A stretch of DNA of 64,000 nt from NCBI GenBank assembly GCA_012729315.1, contig JAAYDI010000103.1, forward strand, positions 1 through 64,000, in the 5' to 3' direction. Position numbers and translations under genes: made by a program. Source of the stretch: Planctomycetaceae bacterium. Lineage in GTDB: Bacteria; Planctomycetota; Planctomycetia; Pirellulales; Pirellulaceae. Of this stretch, positions 20,988 through 36,275 are shown in pieces (the first letter of the stretch is position 1; every line of letters begins with the position of its first letter). The notes beneath the pieces are model-generated. The model worked only from the letters and a program-made list of their open reading frames with translations. It was not told where the DNA came from and did not search any database.

Positions 20988-21836
20988 TCAGGTGGCGACC
21001 TGCTGCCCCGCCATGTTGGGCTGGTAGAAGATGCCGCGGCAGTACATCTTGGGGGCGAATCGCGGTCCCAGGTCGGTCAGCGATTCCGAGGCGCCTACGA
21101 ACAGATAGCCGGTGGGCGTCAACCGCTCGGCCAGCCGATGGAACAGGTTGCGACGTGTGGTGGGGTCGAAGTAGATGGCGACGTTGCGACAGAAGATCAC
21201 GTCGAATGGCCCCAGATCATGAAACGGCTCCAGCAGATTACGACGCTCGAACTGGACCAGCGCGCGGAGCGAGTCACGGACCTTCCAGTTCGCGCCGTCC
21301 CGTTGCATGTACTTATGGAGGTAGTTAGGGGGCATGCCGCGCCCGATTTCGTAGTTGGAGTAGGTGCCTCGGCAGGCCTGGGCGATCGAGGAGTCGGCAA
21401 TGTCCGTCCCCAGGATGTTGATGTTCCAGGAGGCGATGTTGGGGAGCAGTTCGCTGAGCACGATCGCGATGCTGTAGCATTCCTGGCCGGTGCTGCACGC
21501 AGCACACCAGAACCGGATGCGTTTGGAGAGGGGCGAGTTGGCCTTGGCGTCGATGATGTCGGGGATCACGCGATGCTTTAGGACGTTGAACGGTGAACCG
21601 TCGCGGAAGAACAGCGTCTCGTGGGTGGTGATCGCGTCGACGACTTTCGTACGCAGCTGCCGGTCGCCCGACAAGGCGCGGCGGCAGAGTTCGACATAAT
21701 TGTCGCAGCCGGCCTCGGCCGCGACCTGCGACAGGCGACTCTCGATCAGATACCCCTTGCTGTCGTCCAGTGCCAACCCACACAGCTGTTTGACGAGTTT
21801 GGCCAGCTCCAGCATATCCTGCGGTGTCACCGGCAT
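20988..21836 (-). CDS. cheR: Chemoreceptor glutamate methyltransferase CheR
   Basis: 282 residues, normal CheR length. Methylates glutamates of chemoreceptors using S-adenosylmethionine. Seen: N-terminal helical domain, then the methyltransferase core with FWCAACSTGQECYSIA, LGTDIADSSIAQA, DVIFCRNVAIYFD and LFVGASESLTDLG. Its start overlaps the end of cheB by 10 bases, so the methylation pair is coupled. It is the last gene of the leftward chemotaxis operon. Confidence 0.95.
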   Translation of the reverse strand: MPVTPQDMLELAKLVKQLCGLALDDSKGYLIESRLSQVAAEAGCDNYVELCRRALSGDRQLRTKVVDAITTHETLFFRDGSPFNVLKHRVIPDIIDAKANSPLSKRIRFWCAACSTGQECYSIAIVLSELLPNIASWNINILGTDIADSSIAQACRGTYSNYEIGRGMPPNYLHKYMQRDGANWKVRDSLRALVQFERRNLLEPFHDLGPFDVIFCRNVAIYFDPTTRRNLFHRLAERLTPTGYLFVGASESLTDLGPRFAPKMYCRGIFYQPNMAGQQVAT

Positions 21837-22951
21837 GCGAATTCCTTTCGTCGGACGAGTTGCACGATCTCGGTGGCGAGGCGCTCGGGAGGCCCCACGA
21901 GGTCGGCCAGTCCCTCCTCAATGGGCTGTCGCGGCATCCCGAACACGACACACGACTGTTCGTCTTGAGCCATGACGGTTCCGCCGCACTGGCGGATCAG
22001 CCGGCAGCCGGCAGCGCCGTCGTTGCCCATGCCGGTCATGATGAGGGCCAGGGAGTGGGCCCCATAGACGTCGGCGACGGAACGGAACAGGTAGTCCACA
22101 CTGGGCCGGCAACTGTTTTCACGTGGATCATCGGTGATGGCGATCTGCAGATTGTCGTCCTCCTTGGCCAGCCGCATCTGCCGGCCGCCCGGCGCGATGT
22201 AGACGTGCCCCGGCAACACCGGCTGTTCGTGTGCCGCTTCGCAGACCGAGATCACGCTGCGGCGGTCCAGGTCCTCGGCCAGCGAGCGGGTGAACACCGG
22301 CGGCATGTGCTGGACGATCAGCACCGGCACCGACAGGTCCGCCGGCAGTCGGGGGATCAGTCGTTGCAGAGTCTGAGGTCCGCCAGTCGAGATGCCGATC
22401 GCGACGACGCGAGGCGGTACAAGCGTCCGGGGCGCGGGCCGCGGGCCACTGCCGGCGGCCCCTGCCGGGACGCGGCCGGGAGTGGTCGGAGCGGAAGCCG
22501 GGTGGCGCACGGCGCCACCGAGCACTTGGCGGATCCGCTGCACGCGTCCCAGGCTGATGACGCGGCTGGCGAGCGACTCGCGCAGCTTGCGGGCGTTCTC
22601 CGCCAGATTGCCGGCGCTAGGTTTGAGGACGAAGTCGAGGGCTCCCAGTTCGAGCGCCGTGACGGTGGCCTGCGCGCTGTCGGCCGTCTGCGCGCTGAGC
22701 ATGATCACGCCCACCGACATGCCCAGCCGCTTAAGCTGCCGCAACGTCTCCAGGCCGTCCATGACCGGCATTTCCACATCCAGGGTGACGATGTCCGGAC
22801 GCAGCTGACGGATCTGTGTCAGTGCCATCCGGCCGTGCGCTGCGGTCCCGACAATCTCAATCCCCGGGGTCTGCTGCAGCGCCTCCGCGACGATCTTGCG
22901 ATAGATCGCAGTGTCGTCTACAACAAGTACGCGAATGGGTTCGTTTGACAT
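21827..22951 (-). CDS. cheB: Chemotaxis response regulator protein-glutamate methylesterase CheB
   Basis: 374 residues. N-terminal REC domain with phospho-acceptor Asp58 (VTLDVEMPVMDG), linker, then the CheB methylesterase domain from about residue 185. Catalytic motifs: GISTGG for the serine (usually GASTGG), IVQHMPPVF for the histidine and MGNDGAAG for the aspartate. Demethylates or deamidates receptors once CheA phosphorylates its REC domain. Lies 11 bases after cheW and overlaps cheR. Confidence 0.95.
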   Translation of the reverse strand: MSNEPIRVLVVDDTAIYRKIVAEALQQTPGIEIVGTAAHGRMALTQIRQLRPDIVTLDVEMPVMDGLETLRQLKRLGMSVGVIMLSAQTADSAQATVTALELGALDFVLKPSAGNLAENARKLRESLASRVISLGRVQRIRQVLGGAVRHPASAPTTPGRVPAGAAGSGPRPAPRTLVPPRVVAIGISTGGPQTLQRLIPRLPADLSVPVLIVQHMPPVFTRSLAEDLDRRSVISVCEAAHEQPVLPGHVYIAPGGRQMRLAKEDDNLQIAITDDPRENSCRPSVDYLFRSVADVYGAHSLALIMTGMGNDGAAGCRLIRQCGGTVMAQDEQSCVVFGMPRQPIEEGLADLVGPPERLATEIVQLVRRKEFACR

Positions 22952-22962
22952 GCCTATTCACT

Positions 22963-23424
22963 TCACTGCAGTGACAACGCTTCCTGGACGTTCAGAATCA
23001 GCAGGAGTTCGTTCTCCATGGCGTGCACGCCCTGAAGAAACCGCGTGTCCATGCTGTCGAAATTGGCCGGCAGTTCATCGATCGCATCGGTCGTGGTACG
23101 CACGACATCCGCGATCCGGTCCACGGCCAGGCCAATCCGCTCCCTCTCGAAGCGGATGATCACGTTGTGCGAGGGACGCGCCGGGATGTCCGACTTCACA
23201 CCGAGGATCGTGCGCGAGTCGACGACGGTGACCACATTGCCCCGCAGGTTGAGTACGCCGAGCACAAAGGGGGGTACATGCGGCAGCGGCGTCACGTCCA
23301 TCTGGCGGTTGATCTCTTCCACCTGGCGGATGTCCGCGCCCACCAGAAGATCACCTACATAGAAGGTCGCCAGTTCCAGCGTATCACTTGCTCCCGCAAG
23401 TGCGGGGGTTTCCACAGCGCTCAT
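22963..23424 (-). CDS. cheW: Chemotaxis coupling protein CheW
   Basis: 153 residues, one CheW domain. Links receptors to CheA. Seen: LATFYVGDLLVGADIRQVEE, VPPFVLGVLNLRGNVVTVVD and the C-terminal ENELLLILNVQEAL. Start set at the ATG at 23424 because AAGGAA lies 7 bases upstream; an in-frame GTG at 23448 would overlap cheA and has no site. Sits 10 bases after cheA. It exists although CheA carries two CheW-like domains of its own. Confidence 0.93.
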   Translation of the reverse strand: MSAVETPALAGASDTLELATFYVGDLLVGADIRQVEEINRQMDVTPLPHVPPFVLGVLNLRGNVVTVVDSRTILGVKSDIPARPSHNVIIRFERERIGLAVDRIADVVRTTTDAIDELPANFDSMDTRFLQGVHAMENELLLILNVQEALSLQ

Positions 23425-23434
23425 TTGTTGTTCC

Positions 23435-26173
23435 TTAGTAGGCAGCACACGCCAGGTCCAGGGACGGAGATGACGACGATATACCGGCTCGGGTGAGGTG
23501 CGTCATGATGGTGTTCAGCAGCTCTTCACGCTCGAGTTTGATGTGGTAGGCATCGATGCCCGCCGCTTCCCCGCGTTGAATGTCCGCATCGCTTCCGAGC
23601 GATGTCACGGCAATGATGGGGAGCCGGGACAGGGCCGCATGATTGCGGATGTTCTGCGCCAGTGCCAGGCCGTCCATGCGCGGCATTTCGATGTCGGTGA
23701 TCACCATGTCGAAGTGCTCCTCCGGTTGCTGCAGCAGCTCCCAGGCCTCCACGCCGTCCTCGGTGCCGGTCACGGAGTAGCCGACCTCCTGCAGCATGTC
23801 GGTGAGTTGGTTGCGGAAGAACGCGGAGTCCTCGACGACCAGCAGGCGGGCCGGGCCACGCTCCTGGCTGACCACCACCGCATCGGTCTGGGTGAACCAG
23901 TCGGGGAAGGCGAGCTCGGCCAGTTCGTACAGATTCAACAGCCGGGTGGTAGTGTCCTGCACGATGAGCGACCCGAGTATGCCGCGCTGCTTGAGCGTCC
24001 GTGTGTCGACGTTGGTCGGGATCTGGCCGATGTCGACCAGTTGGGGCACGATCAGGCCGATTTCGCGCTTGGCGACCGTGAACACGATGACCGACACGGT
24101 CGGCCGCGGCGGCGGTGGCTGGGCCGTGATCAGGTTCTCGATTCGCAACAGCGGCAGCGTGCCTCCGCGGTACTGCAGCACCTCCTGCATGCCGACCAGG
24201 GTGACACTGTCGCTGCGGATGCGTTCGAGCCGCGCGATCAGCTGCATCGGCACGCCGAACTGTTCGTCGGGGTGATTGCGCAGGATCAACGCCGTCTGCG
24301 TCTCCTCCGTTTCACCTTCGTTACTTTTGAGATGGGTGTTGTCCTCGCTGGTCACCTTCAGGTTCATATGGGTCGCGATGCCGGTCACGTCCAGGATGGG
24401 CGCCACGGTGCCGTCCCCCAGGACGGTCGCGCCAGCCAGGCAGGTGCTCTCCTGGATGTGGTGTCCCAGCGGCTTGACGACGATTTCCTCGGAGTCGGCC
24501 ACGCTGTCCACCACCAGTCCGTAGCGCAACGCTCCGGAGTCGACCACAATGATATAGACCGCCTTGGCGCTGGAGGCGCCCTCCGGCGCAGGGGCCGGGG
24601 CCATCGACAGGACATGGTTGAGACGGACGAGCGGCAGCAGGACGCCGCGGAGCCGGAACATCTCGGCGTTCTTGACGTGTTCGATCCGCTTGGCCACTTC
24701 CACGGCCCGGATGCGGACCAGCTCGTTGATGCTGGCCTGAGGGATGGCGAACTTGCGTGCGCCGCACCACACGATCAGCGAGGGGACGATGGCCAGGGTC
24801 AGCGGCAGACGTACATCGATCCGCGTGCCCGCGTTCATCGTCGTCTCGATGCTGACCGTCCCGCTCAGCTTCTCGATGTTGCTCCGCACGACGTCCATGC
24901 CTACGCCGCGACCGCTCACGTCGCTGACCTTCTCCGCCAGGGAGAAACCCGGCTGGAAGATCAGCCGGACCGCTTCCTGGTCGCTCATCTCGCGGGCCTG
25001 GTCAGGGGTAATCAGGCCACGGGTCACCGCCTTCTCCTTGACTTTCTGGGCATCGATGCCGCGGCCGTCGTCGGTGATCGAGATGTGGACCTTGCCAGCC
25101 TGGTGGAAGGCCCGCAGGTAGATCGTGCCCTGCGCCGGCTTGCCCTGCGCGACACGCTGCTCGGGCATTTCAATGCCGTGGTCGACGGAGTTGCGGATCA
25201 GGTGCGTGAGGGGGTCGCCAATCGACTCGATGATCGACTTGTCCACCTCGACGTCTTCGCCTTCCACGAGCAGTTGGCAGTCCTTCCCCAGCTTGACGCT
25301 CAGGTCGCGCACGATGCGGCGGAACTTGCTGAAGACGGTGCCGATCGTCTGCATCCGCGTGCGCATGATCGCTTCCTGCAAATCGGCCGTCACATGATCC
25401 AGGCCGGTGGCCACCGCGTCGATCTGATTCGTGTCGCGGGCTGCCACGACCTGCAGCAGCCGGTTGCGGCTGAGCACCAGTTCGCCGGCAAGGTTCATCA
25501 GGTCATCGAGCAGTTCGACTGACACGCGGATGCTCGCGTCCGCCGCACTCTTGCCGGTCAACTGCTTGGAGCTGTCCGCTCCGCTGGCCGGCTGGCTGGA
25601 AGCGTTGTGCGCGGCCGTGGCGGCCGTCCCGGCGGGAGTCGACTGCTCCAGCTCGGCGCTGTCCTCGTCGTCTTCCGTGTGGGGCGGCTGGCCTGCGCTG
25701 GCTGGTGCCGGGGCGGCTGGTGCCGGGGCGGCTGGTGCCGCCTGCGGTTCTGCCGCTGGTGCCGCGGCCGGGGCCGCCGACCGCGCACCGGACGCGATCC
25801 CCGCAAGCGCCTCGACGTGCTCGGTGATGTCCACTTCGTTGGAGGTGGCAGTGTCTCCCAGCAGGCGGCGCAGGACGTCCGCGCAGCGGAGCAGCACGTC
25901 GATGTTCGACGTGGTGGGAACCAGTTCGCGATTGCGGAACAGGTTCAGTATGTTTTCCATGTTGTGGGCCAGCCGGGAGATCGTGTTGAGCCCCAGGAAA
26001 CCGGCTGCTCCCTTGGCAGAATGGATTGCGCGGAAGACAGTGTTGACGAGGTCGGCATCGATGTTCTCGCCCGCGGACTCCATCGCGAGCAATTGGCTCT
26101 CGATGTCCGCAAGGTGCTCGAGCGACTCGACAACAAACTCCGCAATAAGATCCTGATCAGTGATGTTTGGCAT
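23435..26173 (-). CDS. cheA: Hybrid chemotaxis histidine kinase CheA with REC tail
   Basis: 912 residues. Order: Hpt domain with His51 (RAIHSAKGAAGFLGL); Ala/Pro-rich linker about 125-225, containing repeated APAAP units; dimerisation helices (LMNLAGELVLSRNRLLQ); HATPase with NSVDHG, DDGRGID and VSGRGVGMD; a CheW-like domain (about 480-620); a second CheW-like domain (about 630-760); and a C-terminal REC domain (about 775-905, VVEDSAFFRNQL, acceptor Asp in VITDIEMPRMDG). No P2 CheY-docking domain is evident. CheA with internal REC is usual outside enteric flagellar systems. ATG at 26173 preceded by GAGGAAG. Confidence 0.94.
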   Translation of the reverse strand: MPNITDQDLIAEFVVESLEHLADIESQLLAMESAGENIDADLVNTVFRAIHSAKGAAGFLGLNTISRLAHNMENILNLFRNRELVPTTSNIDVLLRCADVLRRLLGDTATSNEVDITEHVEALAGIASGARSAAPAAAPAAEPQAAPAAPAPAAPAPASAGQPPHTEDDEDSAELEQSTPAGTAATAAHNASSQPASGADSSKQLTGKSAADASIRVSVELLDDLMNLAGELVLSRNRLLQVVAARDTNQIDAVATGLDHVTADLQEAIMRTRMQTIGTVFSKFRRIVRDLSVKLGKDCQLLVEGEDVEVDKSIIESIGDPLTHLIRNSVDHGIEMPEQRVAQGKPAQGTIYLRAFHQAGKVHISITDDGRGIDAQKVKEKAVTRGLITPDQAREMSDQEAVRLIFQPGFSLAEKVSDVSGRGVGMDVVRSNIEKLSGTVSIETTMNAGTRIDVRLPLTLAIVPSLIVWCGARKFAIPQASINELVRIRAVEVAKRIEHVKNAEMFRLRGVLLPLVRLNHVLSMAPAPAPEGASSAKAVYIIVVDSGALRYGLVVDSVADSEEIVVKPLGHHIQESTCLAGATVLGDGTVAPILDVTGIATHMNLKVTSEDNTHLKSNEGETEETQTALILRNHPDEQFGVPMQLIARLERIRSDSVTLVGMQEVLQYRGGTLPLLRIENLITAQPPPPRPTVSVIVFTVAKREIGLIVPQLVDIGQIPTNVDTRTLKQRGILGSLIVQDTTTRLLNLYELAELAFPDWFTQTDAVVVSQERGPARLLVVEDSAFFRNQLTDMLQEVGYSVTGTEDGVEAWELLQQPEEHFDMVITDIEMPRMDGLALAQNIRNHAALSRLPIIAVTSLGSDADIQRGEAAGIDAYHIKLEREELLNTIMTHLTRAGISSSSPSLDLACAAY

Positions 26174-26201
26174 CACATTCTTCCTCGTACTTGAAGTCGT
26201 T

Positions 26202-26651
26202 TCAGCAGCTGGCGAATTCCGCCTCTTCCGCGGCGGACGCCAGCGCACGCCCACTGCGACGGGTCGTCGGAGCCTGCTCCACTTTGTGCCGGAGATAGCC
26301 CGTCTGTTCATGGCGCAGTCGAAAGCTGGCCTCTTCGAGTGCCTCCGGATCGATGGCGCCGATCTCGACCAGGCACTGGGGCAGCAGCGGTGTCCGCTGC
26401 GTCTGGAGGCGAAGCAGGTTGGCCACTTGCCGTTTGGTCAGGAACCCCAGTTCGATGGCGGTTTCCCCAAACGGCTTGCCGCCTTCCGCCTGTGCTTGAA
26501 GCACGGCAAACACCTGCTTCATCGTCAACCTGCCGGATTCCAGCGCCAGCCGGCCGAGCCGGGGACGCTGCTCCAGCTGCCATTCGACAGCCTCGACGAA
26601 CTGTTCGGCGGTAATGAAGCCATGCCGGACCAACGAAACTTCCAGGAACAT
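26202..26651 (-). CDS. Unrecognised protein with tandem helical repeats, head of chemotaxis operon
   Basis: 149 residues, cytoplasmic, not a standard chemotaxis component. It seems to hold two or three related helical units, for example LGRLALESGRLTMKQVFAVL and GETAIELGFLTKRQVANLL. Each has the pattern small-G-x-L/F-T-x-x-Q-V-x-x-L-L, like the N-terminal MshEN/GspE-N modules of type II secretion and pilus ATPases. The C-terminal about 35 residues are charged and low-complexity. Strong site GGGAGGGAG lies 9 bases before the ATG at 26651. It is the first gene of the leftward operon, 28 bases before cheA, so it is probably made with the chemotaxis proteins. Confidence 0.7.
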   Translation of the reverse strand: MFLEVSLVRHGFITAEQFVEAVEWQLEQRPRLGRLALESGRLTMKQVFAVLQAQAEGGKPFGETAIELGFLTKRQVANLLRLQTQRTPLLPQCLVEIGAIDPEALEEASFRLRHEQTGYLRHKVEQAPTTRRSGRALASAAEEAEFASC

Positions 26652-26991
26652 ATAGTTGTCTCCCTCCCCGTGTAGTGGGCGGACGCTCATTCTCAGAAGC
26701 ATAGCTTGCGGTATTGTGCGCGCCGGATGATGATGGGCAACAAGCAAGAAAAGCGGAGTGGTGCCGCGCGTCACAGTCGCGACCGGCCGCCGCGCGCGGC
26801 ACCGCCCGGCGCTGCGGCGGCCTGATTCCCAGGCATTCTCCCTGCAATCGGTACGATACCCCGCGGAAATCGGCCGGTTTGGCTGACTCCCCGCGGCTCC
26901 CGCGATGCGGTGATCTACAGTTCCCTTAAACGTGCGCGATCGGCGCTCGTTGGTGACAACGGTTCAGGGCATTGACAGACGGGGGGGAATC
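26652..26991. promoter_or_regulatory. Divergent regulatory region between chemotaxis half-operons
   Basis: 340 bases separating the leftward repeat-protein/cheA/cheW/cheB/cheR genes from rightward cheY/cheX. No gene or stable hairpin is recognised. Promoters for both directions should be here; I see no convincing sigma-54 or FliA-type consensus. Confidence 0.5.
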
Positions 26992-27366
26992 ATGGCTTCC
27001 GCGGTTCTCGTTGCCGACGATTCACGGGTCATGCGTCGCATCATCATCCGGGCGCTCAACGACATTGGGCTGGACCAGATCGTCGAGGCGAACGATGGCG
27101 ATGAGGCGCTGGCTGAGTTCGGTAAACAAGAATTCATGCTGGTGCTGACAGACTGGAACATGCCCAACAAGAATGGCCTGGAGGTCATTCAGGGCATCCG
27201 CGCCACCGGCTCGAAAGTCCCCATCATCATGGTGACCACGGAGTCGGAGAAAGCACGCGTTTTCAGTGCAATCGAGGCCGGTGTCACTGACTACTTGATC
27301 AAGCCGTTCGATGCAGAAACGCTGCGCGGTAAAGTGGAGAAACACGTCGCTATGCCGGCTTCCTGA
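26992..27366 (+). CDS. cheY: Chemotaxis response regulator CheY
   Basis: 124 residues, a stand-alone REC domain. Seen: acidic pair in VLVADDSRVMRR, acceptor Asp54 in LTDWNMPNKNG (the usual CheY block), Thr in VTTESEKA and the conserved lysine in YLIKPFDA. Start at the ATG at 26992 (MASAVLVADDS), preceded by a G-rich site GGGGGGGA. Carries the signal from CheA to its target. cheX follows on the same strand, 65 bases later. Confidence 0.93.
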   Translation: MASAVLVADDSRVMRRIIIRALNDIGLDQIVEANDGDEALAEFGKQEFMLVLTDWNMPNKNGLEVIQGIRATGSKVPIIMVTTESEKARVFSAIEAGVTDYLIKPFDAETLRGKVEKHVAMPAS

Positions 27367-27394
27367 TGCGTAGGTGGAAGTGGCACGCACCAGC

Positions 27395-27418
27395 ACTCGT
27401 ATTACAACTCGTATCACA
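27395..27418 (+). repeat. 12-bp near-perfect tandem duplication before cheX
   Basis: Two adjacent 12-bp units (ACTCGTATTACA / ACTCGTATCACA) differing at one base, in the cheY-cheX spacer. AGGA at its right edge lies 10 bases before the cheX ATG. Confidence 0.85.
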
Positions 27419-27431
27419 GGATCATCTGCTC

Positions 27432-27926
27432 ATGGAGTCGTTGACGGGACCGTTTGTGACGTCGGTAGCGGACATCTTCGCGTCCATGTTTGGTTGCAAG
27501 GTCGCACTCGCGGAACCGCAGCAGCGAGACAACATGCACGCGACGCGCGACGTCACCGGCATCATCGGCCTGACGGGTAAGGCGGATGGCAACATCGTCA
27601 TCAGCCTGGACTGCGAAGTGGCGCTCTCACTCACGGAAGCGATGCTGGGACAGCGCCCAGAACTGATCGACGAAAACGTGATCGATGCGGTCGGGGAGAC
27701 CGTCAACATCGTGGTCGGACAAGCCAAGGCCAAACTCGACTATCTGGCCCTTAACATCGGCATTCCCACCGTCGTGACGGGACGTGGCCAGTCGATCCGG
27801 TTCACCGGCCAGACCGTTCCGGTCTGGTTCGCCTTCACCTCCGCGTGGGGCGGGATCGACATGTGCGTCGGTCTGAGCGCTGTGTCGGCTTGTGCGTCAT
27901 CCCCGGAGCTCTGTGGCGCCTGCTGA
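27432..27926 (+). CDS. cheX: CheY-phosphate phosphatase, CheX family
   Basis: 164 residues. CheX/CheC-family proteins dephosphorylate CheY-P. The catalytic helix is seen as GETVNIVVGQAK, with Glu and Asn three residues apart (E-x-x-N), the phosphatase signature; only one such motif is present, as in CheX. Also PFVTSVADIFASMFG at the N-terminus. The last about 15 residues, with three cysteines, are atypical. Start at the ATG at 27432; in-frame codons back to 27366 overlap cheY and look random. Its place behind cheY agrees with the function. Confidence 0.88.
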   Translation: MESLTGPFVTSVADIFASMFGCKVALAEPQQRDNMHATRDVTGIIGLTGKADGNIVISLDCEVALSLTEAMLGQRPELIDENVIDAVGETVNIVVGQAKAKLDYLALNIGIPTVVTGRGQSIRFTGQTVPVWFAFTSAWGGIDMCVGLSAVSACASSPELCGAC

Positions 27927-33574: not shown

Positions 33575-34912
33575 TCAAATCGATCGAAGTCCGAGTTCGC
33601 GGAGCTTGTAGATCAGCGCCCGGCGGCTGATGCCCAGTCGCTTGGCAGTCTGGGTCTTGTTGTTCTGGCACTCGGCCAGCGTGGCCAGGATGGTCGCGCG
33701 TTCGACCTGCGACAGGCGGTTGGTATCTGCGGCCGGGTCGGTTGCTTCGCCCGTGACGGTCGCGATCTTGGGAGGCAGATGTTCGGGCAGGATGACATCG
33801 CCGCGGCAGAGCAGGCAGGCGCGTTGCATGGCGTTGCGCAGCTCGCGGACATTGCCCGGCCAGGCGTAGACGAGCAGGCTGCGACCAGCCTGGGGCGACA
33901 GGCGAACCGGCCCGCCGGCAAACTGGTGGGCGTAGTTGCGAGCCAGCGGCAGGATATCCTCACGGCGATTGCGCAGCGGCTCCACGACCACCTCGACCAC
34001 GTTGATCCGGTAGTACAGGTCTTCGCGGAACCGCTGGGCTTCCACTTCCTGTTCCAGATCGCGGTGGGTGGCCACGACCAGCCGTGTGTCGACTTGCACC
34101 GCGTCGTCACTGCCTACCGGTGTGATCGTTCCGGTCTCGATGGCTCTCAGCAGCTTCGGCTGGAGCGCCAGCGGCAGCTCACCAATCTCGTCGAGGAACA
34201 GCGTGCCGCCGCTGGCGGAGCGGAACACGCCTTCGCGCGCCTCGTACGCGCCAGTGAACGCGCCGCGACTGTGCCCGAACAGCTGGCTTTCGACCAGCGT
34301 CTCAGGCATACTGGCGCAGTTGGCGGCAACCAGAGGGCCGGCGGCACGCTGGCTCCACGCGTGGATCAGATGTGCGATCACCTCCTTGCCTGTGCCCGTC
34401 TCGCCGCGCACCAGCACCGGCGCATCGGACGGGGCGATGATGGCGACGGTGCGCAGGAGATGCCGCATCGCCGGGCTGGCGAAAACCAGGCCGGCCGGCA
34501 GCGGTGGGAGTTCCGGTTCGGCAGGCGGGTCGGCGCCCCGCGAGAGTCCGAGCGCATCGAGTACTGCCGCCCGCAATTCATCCAAATCGACCGGCTTGGC
34601 CAGGTAATCGTCCGCGCCGCTCTTGACAGCCGCCACCGCCTGACGCAGATCGGCGTATGCTGTGATCAGCAGCACGGGCTTGGCGGGGTCCAACTGCCGG
34701 ATGCGGGCCAGCGTCTCCATGCCGCTGATGCCTGGCAACCGCACGTCCAGCAGCACCATGTCGACCTGCTGCGCCGCGAGCAGCGCCAGAGCCTCCTCGC
34801 CCGAAGCCGCTTCGGCGGGGTGGCAGCCCAGCGTTTGGATGAACCCCGACAGCAACTCGCGTTGCCGCGGTTCGTCATCCACGATCAGCACTGTTTTCTG
34901 CGTGTGTGACAT
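33575..34912 (-). CDS. Sigma-54-dependent response regulator (NtrC/ZraR type)
   Basis: 445 residues. REC domain with Asp56 ([11 protein letters not shown]); AAA+ domain from about residue 135 with Walker A GETGTGKE and GAFTGA (intact sigma-54 contact loop); Walker [15 protein letters not shown]-finger region [15 protein letters not shown] Fis-type helix-turn-helix ends the protein ([19 protein letters not shown]). Activates sigma-54 promoters when phosphorylated by the kinase encoded just upstream; the two genes overlap by 38 bases. Target genes unknown. Confidence 0.95.
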
Positions 34913-36275
34913 CGATTCCGTCCAACTTGAAGACCGCGCCGCCGCCGTCACGCGGATGATACGATATCGTCCAGCCGTGCAGTGTGGCAATGTGCCGGAC
35001 GATGGCCAGCCCCAGCCCGGTGCCTTGCGCCCGAGTGGTGAAATACGGTGTGAAGAGCGACGGCCTGACCCCCGCTGGCACGCCGGGACCGCGGTCTGCG
35101 ACCTGAATCGACGCTGTTTTGTCCGATTGCGGCCGTACCCACAGCTCCACCTGCTGATCCGGCGGCGAGAACTGCACGGCGTTCTGCACCAGATTGAACA
35201 GGGCCTGCCGCAGCAGTTCCGAGTCGGCGCGCAGATGCCGCGTCGCCGGCGCTACTTCCCAGGTTAGTGACAGCCGGGCCGATTCGAGGTCCGGTTGCAG
35301 GATCACCGCCAGTTCGCGGCAGAATGCCTCGACGGCCACCGCTGTGAACTGGGGTTGATGCGGACGGGCGAAGGCCAGGAACTGGTTGATCCGGGCAGTG
35401 ACGCGATCACACTCTTCAAGCACCGACTGCGCAAACTGCTGCCGTTCCTCGTCCGACATACGGGACTGCGCCAGCCGCTGGGTCCATCCGCGGATCAGTC
35501 CCAGCGGATTACGCGTCTCGTGCGCCAGGCCGGCCGCCGCCTGGCTCAACTCCTGCAGATGACGCGTTTCGGTCTGGTACACACGCGCCTGCCCACGCGC
35601 GTCCGCCAGGCTGACCGTCGCCCACCACACCAGGCCGAGACAGATCGCCACCACACCGGCCGCGATCGTGGCCAACAGATGCGACCAGCGCGACTGAACG
35701 ATCAGCAGGTCGGCGCGGCTGCGGTCCAGCCACAGTTCCACGCGGAACATGCCGCCTGCGGCAAACGGTCCCGTGTTGTCGGGATCGTCGCCCCACCGCC
35801 GTAGTCCCAGGCCGCGTCCACGCCCTCCCCCGCCCCCGCGCATGCCGCCTCCCCCCGGACCCGCAGGCAACGGCTTGAGTTCGAACGTCTCTGTCACGCG
35901 CAGCGCGTGAGAGGGCAGGGTGTCCGTGTCTGGGCCAGGTGTGTCAGGGCCAGATGTATCGGCAGGCGGCACACCGGTGGCCTGCCCCGCCGCCAGGATC
36001 AGCTGGTCGTCGTCCGTATAGATGGCGACGGCGATCACGTCCGCCGATTCGGCCAACTCGTCGAGCAGAGCCTGGAGCTGCTCCTGGAAATACTGACCGA
36101 TGCGGCGGTGTGAGCCGATGCCGCCCACCAGCGCCGTCATGATCGAATGCGATTGCTGGTACAGCGATTCTTCGATCAGGGCCAGCTGCTGGCAGTAGTT
36201 GCGGTACTGCCACAGCCCGAGTCCCAGCCAAGCCAGGCAGAGTGCGGCGTAGATGATCAGCAGATGGCGTCGCAT
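34875..36275 (-). CDS. Membrane sensor histidine kinase, partner of the NtrC-type regulator
   Basis: 466 residues. Two membrane helices (about 5-23 and 200-223) flank a periplasmic sensor of about 175 residues. The sensor contains an unusual Gly/Arg-rich stretch at about 139-158 (GGGMRGGGGGRGRG) and a Pro/Asp run near 103-119. The kinase core has phospho-acceptor His252 (GLAHETRNPLG), N-box NLVQNAVQFS, DRGPGVP and GTGLGLAIV, of the NtrB/ZraS class. Overlaps the response regulator by 38 bases. The signal cannot be told; ZraS-like kinases sense envelope or metal stress. Confidence 0.93.
   Translation of the reverse strand: MRRHLLIIYAALCLAWLGLGLWQYRNYCQQLALIEESLYQQSHSIMTALVGGIGSHRRIGQYFQEQLQALLDELAESADVIAVAIYTDDDQLILAAGQATGVPPADTSGPDTPGPDTDTLPSHALRVTETFELKPLPAGPGGGGMRGGGGGRGRGLGLRRWGDDPDNTGPFAAGGMFRVELWLDRSRADLLIVQSRWSHLLATIAAGVVAICLGLVWWATVSLADARGQARVYQTETRHLQELSQAAAGLAHETRNPLGLIRGWTQRLAQSRMSDEERQQFAQSVLEECDRVTARINQFLAFARPHQPQFTAVAVEAFCRELAVILQPDLESARLSLTWEVAPATRHLRADSELLRQALFNLVQNAVQFSPPDQQVELWVRPQSDKTASIQVADRGPGVPAGVRPSLFTPYFTTRAQGTGLGLAIVRHIATLHGWTISYHPRDGGGAVFKLDGIDVTHAENSADRG

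Follow-up and report, generated by a model that had tools for sequence, protein, structure and literature searches.

A small MshEN_N-type repeat protein encoded before cheA in a planctomycete: a candidate c-di-GMP receptor of the chemotaxis operon

The chemotaxis operon and its first gene

The window, by which we mean the whole stretch of 64,000 nucleotides that was analysed (contig JAAYDI010000103.1 of a Planctomycetaceae bacterium), contains a chemotaxis operon with the gene order P0001-cheA-cheW-cheB-cheR, together with a cheY-like and a cheX-like gene that are divergent from it (Table 1). The stop of the P0001 gene is separated by 28 bases from the ATG of cheA, and 340 bases lie between the start of cheY and the start of the P0001 gene. 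No terminator-like site was found on the minus strand between the P0001 gene and cheA; a sigma-70-type scan of positions 26100-27100 gave no promoter, and the sole terminator-like site in that interval is on the plus strand, a count at chance level. The open reading frame of P0001 is genuine: it opens with an ATG at 26651, immediately 5' of which stands the purine-rich ribosome-binding sequence GGGGAGGGAG. The two statements from which the first-pass annotation of this DNA set out, namely that there is a 149-residue protein here and that this repeat protein heads a chemotaxis operon, are thus upheld, the one by these start signals and the other by the Pfam identities of cheA, cheW, cheB and cheR.

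In the genome to which the window belongs there are nine GGDEF matches, two chemoreceptor signalling domains, one CheA hit and one flhA-type match, and CheW domains are confined to the CheA and CheW of the window. The assembly is 97% complete and is divided into 213 contigs, so that further chemotaxis sets could be missing from it, and the operon described here is probably, as judged from these domain matches, the genome's sole chemotaxis system. Because GGDEF matches and flhA are both present, c-di-GMP turnover and a flagellum are likely in this organism. Elsewhere in the window, at 33575-36275, the translated reading frames appear to encode a sigma-54-type response regulator and a histidine kinase in tandem.

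The first-pass annotation had also described P0001 as a series of tandem helical units of the pattern GxLTxxQVxxLL, and this description holds for two clear copies (GRLTMKQVFAVL at residues 40-51 and GFLTKRQVANLL at residues 69-80), a third, looser one (GFITAEQFVEAV at residues 11-22) and a fourth, degenerate one at residues 98-109. The period of the repeat is 29 residues: self-identity at this offset is 0.207 over residues 1-116, a value which is reached at the same offset by a fraction of 0.0001 of 20,000 composition shuffles, and at any offset from 15 to 59 by 0.76% of 5,000 shuffles.

Table 1. Coordinates in the window of the chemotaxis genes and of the features within P0001
Feature	Position	Strand	Basis
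P0001, stand-alone MshEN_N-type repeat protein, 149 aa	26202..26651	-	ORF, NF053729 match, AlphaFold2
Repeat unit 1, residues 1-29; degenerate, E4 at motif Gly position	26565..26651	-	AlphaFold2, repeat analysis
c-di-GMP motif I, residues 31-54 (R31 L32 G33 ... G40 ... L51 ... Q54)	26490..26561	-	NF053729; motif definition PMC5013675
c-di-GMP motif II, residues 60-83 (P60 F61 G62 ... G69 ... L80 ... Q83), 5-residue spacer before	26403..26474	-	NF053729
Repeat unit 4, residues 88-116; degenerate, P91 at motif Gly position	26304..26390	-	AlphaFold2, repeat analysis
cheA, 912 aa: Hpt, dimerisation, kinase, two CheW-like stretches, receiver	23435..26173	-	Pfam
cheW (longest ORF; true start perhaps slightly downstream)	22963..23448	-	Pfam
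cheB	21827..22951	-	Pfam
cheR	20988..21836	-	Pfam
cheY-like receiver, divergent (start set at an ATG)	26992..27366	+	Pfam
cheX-like phosphatase, divergent (longest ORF)	27366..27926	+	Pfam

Sequence, predicted fold and pocket of P0001

The NCBI curated model NF053729, which represents the MshE-type c-di-GMP motif, matches P0001 with E 4.4e-17 and 61.6 bits against a cut-off of 38, in two stretches of which the best covers residues 31-83 and all of the profile (positions 1-53 of 53). The segment 26403-26561 by itself scores 39.5 bits, barely above that cut-off, and 5 of 14 control genomes gave matches with this model. When solved structures were searched with phmmer, PilF was matched with E 3.3e-8 (best stretch, chain residues 298-384) and MshE with E 2.8e-6. 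Plasmid records contained no match to P0001 at E up to 0.01.

The AlphaFold2 model of P0001 has a pLDDT of 90, with a block confidence that is 96-98 for residues 11-110 and weak in the tail beyond about residue 120, and consists of four helix pairs (3-9/15-28, 32-38/44-57, 61-67/73-86 and 90-96/102-126). Foldseek aligns the model with MshE bound to c-di-GMP (5htl) over 57 columns with an rmsd of 0.6 Å, 40% identity and a probability of 1.00, at an E of 0.03 which is modest because the matched part is short. With VIA-align the same structure is the top fold match (58 residues, rmsd 1.3 Å, Z 12.3, with the caution that for helical repeats a Z below about 13 can reflect merely a common arrangement), and the runners-up are crystal structures of PilF GSPII-B with c-di-GMP (Z 10.2-10.9). 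The specificity of the match to MshE comes from the sequence motif, beyond the helical-repeat arrangement, and the four-helix fold of MshEN_N is present in the predicted model. As judged by profile and by predicted structure, then, P0001 is a member of the MshEN_N group.

Two weak Pfam names for P0001, FumaraseC_C (0.0017) and DUF4388 (0.0087), were judged to be misleading. By fold, fumarase C-terminal domains rank just below the MshEN entries (Z 8.4 and lower), and this likeness was read as a helical-hairpin shape held in common, because the c-di-GMP residues and their spacing are specific. The paired-hairpin fold that P0001 shares with the C-terminal domains of fumarase and aspartase, at Z up to 8.4, lies in residues 32-88 (26388-26558).

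The Pfam MshEN model PF05157 does not match P0001 at E up to 10, nor does Pfam find the T2SSE domain PF00437 in it, and this protein of 149 residues is not an ATPase of the GspE/PilB type. In both secretion ATPases of the window's own genome PF05157 is found (residues 89-174 and 169-254) just after the motif (about residues 34-87 and 116-166); since this part is absent from P0001, we infer that P0001 corresponds to the ligand-binding N-subdomain of MshEN without the C-subdomain. These two ATPases are adjacent to each other (contig C145:1618-5078) and are the other two matches to the MshEN motif in the genome. The resemblance to MshEN and GspE-N that had been proposed from the letters of the sequence therefore stands for the N-terminal, c-di-GMP-binding half and fails for the part described by PF05157; the profile search and the structure prediction that had been suggested as checks gave, respectively, a match above the cut-off over all 53 positions and a model that superposes on MshE.

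The residues of MshE that contact the ligand in the pocket formed by both motifs (G11, Q32, G40 and Q61) are present in P0001 as G33, Q54, G62 and Q83, and the arginine and glutamine residues that the first-pass annotation had left unconfirmed are found as R31, Q54 and Q83. R31 fits the R/K/L of the first position of motif I, and the leucines L32, L51 and L80 are retained. P0001 departs from the published 53-residue motif at A36, R41, V47, P60, F61, A65 and V76, of which V47, V76 and F61 stand in place of leucine (F61 at the position of a pocket leucine), while P60 occupies the position of the second arginine and lies outside R/K/L. PilF GSPII-C, for which c-di-GMP binding is reported, has a proline at the same position of motif II (PMC11731258). 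R41 aligns with I19 of MshE, and I19R is among the eight changes named for XpsE, a non-binder which shows that MshEN-type domains can lose binding; the V. cholerae MshEN_N by itself (residues 1-62) binds c-di-GMP with a KD of 0.35 uM (PMC5013675). The R41 position is highly variable across the P0001 family.

In an alignment of 19 members there is no variation at G33, G62 or Q83 and very little at Q54 or L51, and 27 of 27 aligned members (P0001 and 26 relatives from named genomes) match NF053729 at E 0.001 or better. The larger set of 61 family rows, from which the duplicate place L075 and the fragment L043 had been removed, allows rows linked to cheA to be compared with the others: G33 is present in 16/17 against 39/44, Q54 in 15/17 against 41/44, G62 in 17/17 against 40/44 and Q83 in 16/17 against 42/44. 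The exceptions in the pocket include a fusion within CheA (L067), which has G at position 54, and the rows L060, with E at 54, and L071, with A at 83; the position of G40 is occupied by R in 12 of the 17 cheA-linked rows. Unit 1 is degenerate in P0001 and its glycine is retained in many relatives, so that those relatives may, by their sequences, hold a second c-di-GMP site. Stand-alone relatives of 120-165 residues from Desulfobacterota, Nitrospirota and others (L084, L086, L088, L092, L095, L109 and L118) have an intact-looking first motif and possibly two such sites.

Recurrence beside cheA and in fusions

A search with P0001 alone gave matches in 10 of 60 near relatives, and none in G001, the sole genome of the same genus that was searched. 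With a profile built from eight members, 195 of 296 genomes of the order were matched at E 1e-5 or better, and among the matches listed short frames predominate at the strong end and frames of about 575 residues at the weak end. Around the stronger matches of both searches 62 stretches, representing 61 distinct places, were fetched; the weak frames of about 575 residues, which are ATPases by the two examples tested in the window's genome, were left out apart from a few that were chosen.

In 16 of the 62 stretches the start of a CheA is found no more than about 300 bases from the module, or from the frame that contains it, and on the same strand; the module is a separate gene in 11 of them, part of a receiver-module fusion in four and part of CheA itself in one. 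The four receiver-module proteins before cheA (L024, L066, L068 and L069) are from four genomes of one genus, and their domains were assigned by Pfam in L024 and by BLAST match and frame length in the other three. The fusion within CheA, L067, is a single protein of 1026 residues that consists of an Hpt domain, an MshEN-type module, a second Hpt domain and the CheA core. Forty-five of the 61 distinct places have no cheA directly downstream, a count that includes two stretches (L038 and L043) which end too early to judge; their neighbours are varied and in many cases are not chemotaxis genes, examples of unrelated ones, named by reading the sequence, being a glycogen branching enzyme and an HD-domain protein. 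The row with the highest identity to the window, L028, carries cheY, cheX and mshEN in that order and divergent from its cheA. In L015 a cheA and the module gene converge, the end of cheA lying about 0.7 kb away.

On a tree of 56 rows, of which 17 including the window are cheA-linked and from which L075, L043 and five divergent rows (L023, L070, L072, L074 and L076) were left out, the cheA-linked label requires 6 changes, compared with 14.7 in shuffles, none of 500 of which was as low. The number of independent gains beside cheA is uncertain, in that 6 changes are a minimum and 3 are forced by well-supported branches. The tree does not resolve the nearest relatives of the window, which no starred group contains, and L071 and L017 have long branches.

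Among the 66 genomes of the order-wide sample that belong to the window's family the CheA dimerisation domain is found in 46, with 102 hits in total, and a relative of P0001 adjoins CheA at 12 of these 102 hits. A relative at E 1e-10 or better is present in 22 of the 66 genomes; it is adjacent to CheA in 12 of the 22, and four of the 22 have no CheA hit. For these family-level counts coordinates were compared by eye and the table was counted by hand. In the 22 genomes about 0.04 adjacent pairs would be expected by chance, as against the 12 seen, on a rough estimate which assumes 2-3 CheA, a reach of 5 kb and genomes of 6-7 Mb and which ignores kinship. Within one genus the pair occurs in five genomes, a similar cheA-cheW without the gene in two, and the gene without an adjacent cheA in one. 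When twelve other, selected CheA stretches were scanned with three profiles at E up to 10, none contained a relative.

At the level of the phylum 61 of 392 genomes were matched at E 1e-12, 53 of them outside the order, and CheA is present in 39 of these 53. In five genomes outside the order (G442, G512, G516, G422 and G469) a match and CheA are no more than about 3 kb apart; in three of the five stretches concerned (L171, L173 and L175) the match was not called as a gene by a simple gene caller, and there the link to CheA rests on coordinates. In L172 the order is a receiver gene, an unnamed gene, mshEN, cheA, cheW, cheB and cheR. Residues 176-234 of the CheA-like protein at L171:3997-6399 (+) match the module weakly (E 1.9e-6). 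A scan of named genomes was seeded with a four-member alignment, 80 of its 115 relatives being taken, and the best seven named matches to the P0001 profile (L077-L083) are all from Planctomycetota assemblies.

The module is also joined to CheX. A protein of 435 residues with the order receiver-module-CheX follows cheA-cheW in L174 (8815-10122, minus strand), and a module-CheX-receiver protein is encoded in L138, the CheX part being above the Pfam cut-off in both. In three Bacillota stretches (L097, L102 and L105) module proteins of about 300 residues come directly after a CheY-like receiver gene, and in two of them the second half is CheX-like, just under the Pfam cut-off in L102 and weakly by an NCBIfam CheX model in L097; such proteins may, on this domain evidence, be c-di-GMP-linked CheY phosphatases.

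The P0001-type gene is thus a recurrent but optional companion of cheA. The conserved linkage that the first-pass annotation had put forward for checking is borne out insofar as the gene recurs beside cheA elsewhere, and falls short insofar as this holds at a minority of the CheA hits of the family; a structural match to MshE and a link to cheA in other genomes, the absence of which that annotation had named as counting against its proposal, have both been found.

Candidate function and comparison with known systems

The position of the P0001 gene before cheA, which recurs in some other planctomycetes, suggests that c-di-GMP may tune chemotaxis signalling. The reading that we hold with moderate confidence, from sequence and predicted structure, is that P0001 is a stand-alone c-di-GMP receptor made of MshEN_N units which docks on the CheA complex or on CheY/CheX and tunes the output of chemotaxis. 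Units 2 and 3 (residues 31-83) would form a four-helix pocket for one c-di-GMP, each guanine lying against one glycine and a hydrophobic cluster and both glutamines contacting the ribose-phosphate, and units 1 and 4 would extend the solenoid and provide a surface for the partner. P0001 is probably produced together with CheA, CheW, CheB and CheR, and would most likely dock on the CheA signalling complex or on the CheY/CheX output; binding of c-di-GMP would alter the contact of the solenoid with CheA or CheY/CheX and so tune the output, with the result that the level of c-di-GMP would shift the flow of phosphoryl groups and hence the response of what is probably a flagellar motor. Ligand binding, the partner and the sign of the effect are parts of this scheme that we infer.

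If P0001 binds c-di-GMP, its target could be the CheY/CheX branch, at the step where CheY is dephosphorylated, instead of CheA itself. This is suggested by the CheX fusions L138 and L174, both over the Pfam cut-off, by the Bacillota proteins that follow a CheY-like gene and end in a CheX-like part (near the cut-off in L102, weak in L097), by the cheY-cheX-mshEN order of the row most identical to the window, and by the divergent cheY-cheX of the window itself. We nevertheless think it unlikely, for it is CheA that adjoins the module on the same strand in 15 stretches and is fused to it in another, and in L172 a receiver gene and an unnamed gene precede mshEN and cheA. Rather less probable still is a pocket so degenerate that binding has been lost and P0001 serves as a structural repeat protein, a constitutive scaffold of the chemosensory array. 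R41, P60, F61, V47 and V76 are off the strict consensus, R stands at the G40 position in most cheA-linked rows, the CheA fusion and L060 are without Q54 and L071 is without Q83, and XpsE provides a precedent for the loss of binding (PMC5013675); against this, both glycines and both glutamines are conserved in most of the very divergent members, and P0001 scores above the cut-off of NF053729, a model that all of the aligned members match.

It is also conceivable that the neighbourhood is incidental, and that these proteins are a general family of small c-di-GMP receptors of planctomycetes which come to lie near cheA by chance. The many places without cheA directly downstream, a large part of them among unrelated genes, and the four genomes with a strong match and no CheA hit agree with such an account, which we regard as improbable in view of the excess of adjacent pairs over the number expected (a rough estimate that ignores kinship) and of the recurrence of the link in several lineages, in three architectures and in five more genomes outside the order.

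Returning to P0001 as a receptor that tunes chemotaxis output, a wider proposal, which we put forward tentatively and regard as possible rather than probable, is that in planctomycetes and some other bacteria small c-di-GMP-gated MshEN_N solenoids serve as adaptors that feed the CheA phosphorelay, the same module having been moved among separate genes and fusions with receiver, CheX and CheA. The analysis also offers a testable function for the family to which these small MshEN_N repeat proteins belong, and which in the members scanned was missed by the Pfam MshEN model. With a dedicated c-di-GMP module encoded alongside CheA, the messenger would feed directly into the kinase or into the kinase output; the c-di-GMP inputs to chemotaxis known to us have as their targets receptors, the methyltransferase or the motor. 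In planctomycetes the change between swimming and attached cells has a central place in the life of the organism and is poorly understood.

The closest structural parallel is the MshEN domain of MshE from Vibrio cholerae (5HTL), with its PilB and GspE relatives: P0001 shares with it two 24-residue motifs with a 5-residue spacer, the four-helix fold (in a predicted model) and the glycines and glutamines of the pocket. P0001 differs from MshE, PilB and GspE in that it is without the PF05157 part and the T2SSE ATPase, and from MshE in that it consists of four tandem units and is a separate protein in a chemotaxis operon. A further paper concerns a GspE of Leptospira (PMC12943098). GSPII-C of PilF from Thermus thermophilus is the best sequence match of P0001, and has three copies of the motif besides the shared proline (PMC11731258). 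The module of PilF differs in belonging to a traffic ATPase.

MapZ is a PilZ adaptor (CheR1), Cle is CheY-like and Cbp1 is a PilZ chemoreceptor; all three differ from P0001 in the type of domain and in the point of entry, which is the methyltransferase, the motor and the receptor, respectively. Through such proteins c-di-GMP acts on the chemosensory pathway or on the motor (PMC6370697, PMC5677366, PMC6454048). The remark of the first-pass annotation that this possible link between c-di-GMP and CheA signalling was, to its knowledge, undescribed was too strong, because Wang et al. had stated in 2016, in one sentence which cites their Supplementary Table 4, that CheA and CheX domains occur in association with MshEN (PMC5013675). 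The likeness to P0001 lies in a c-di-GMP module tied to CheA or CheX, and the difference in that their statement concerns domain associations, while P0001 is the product of a separate small gene before cheA (PMC5013675). In the open-licence literature searched, no separate small MshEN protein was found for cheA operons or for planctomycete chemotaxis. The kind of receptor is therefore already known, and what seems to be new here is the separate small MshEN_N gene product before cheA.
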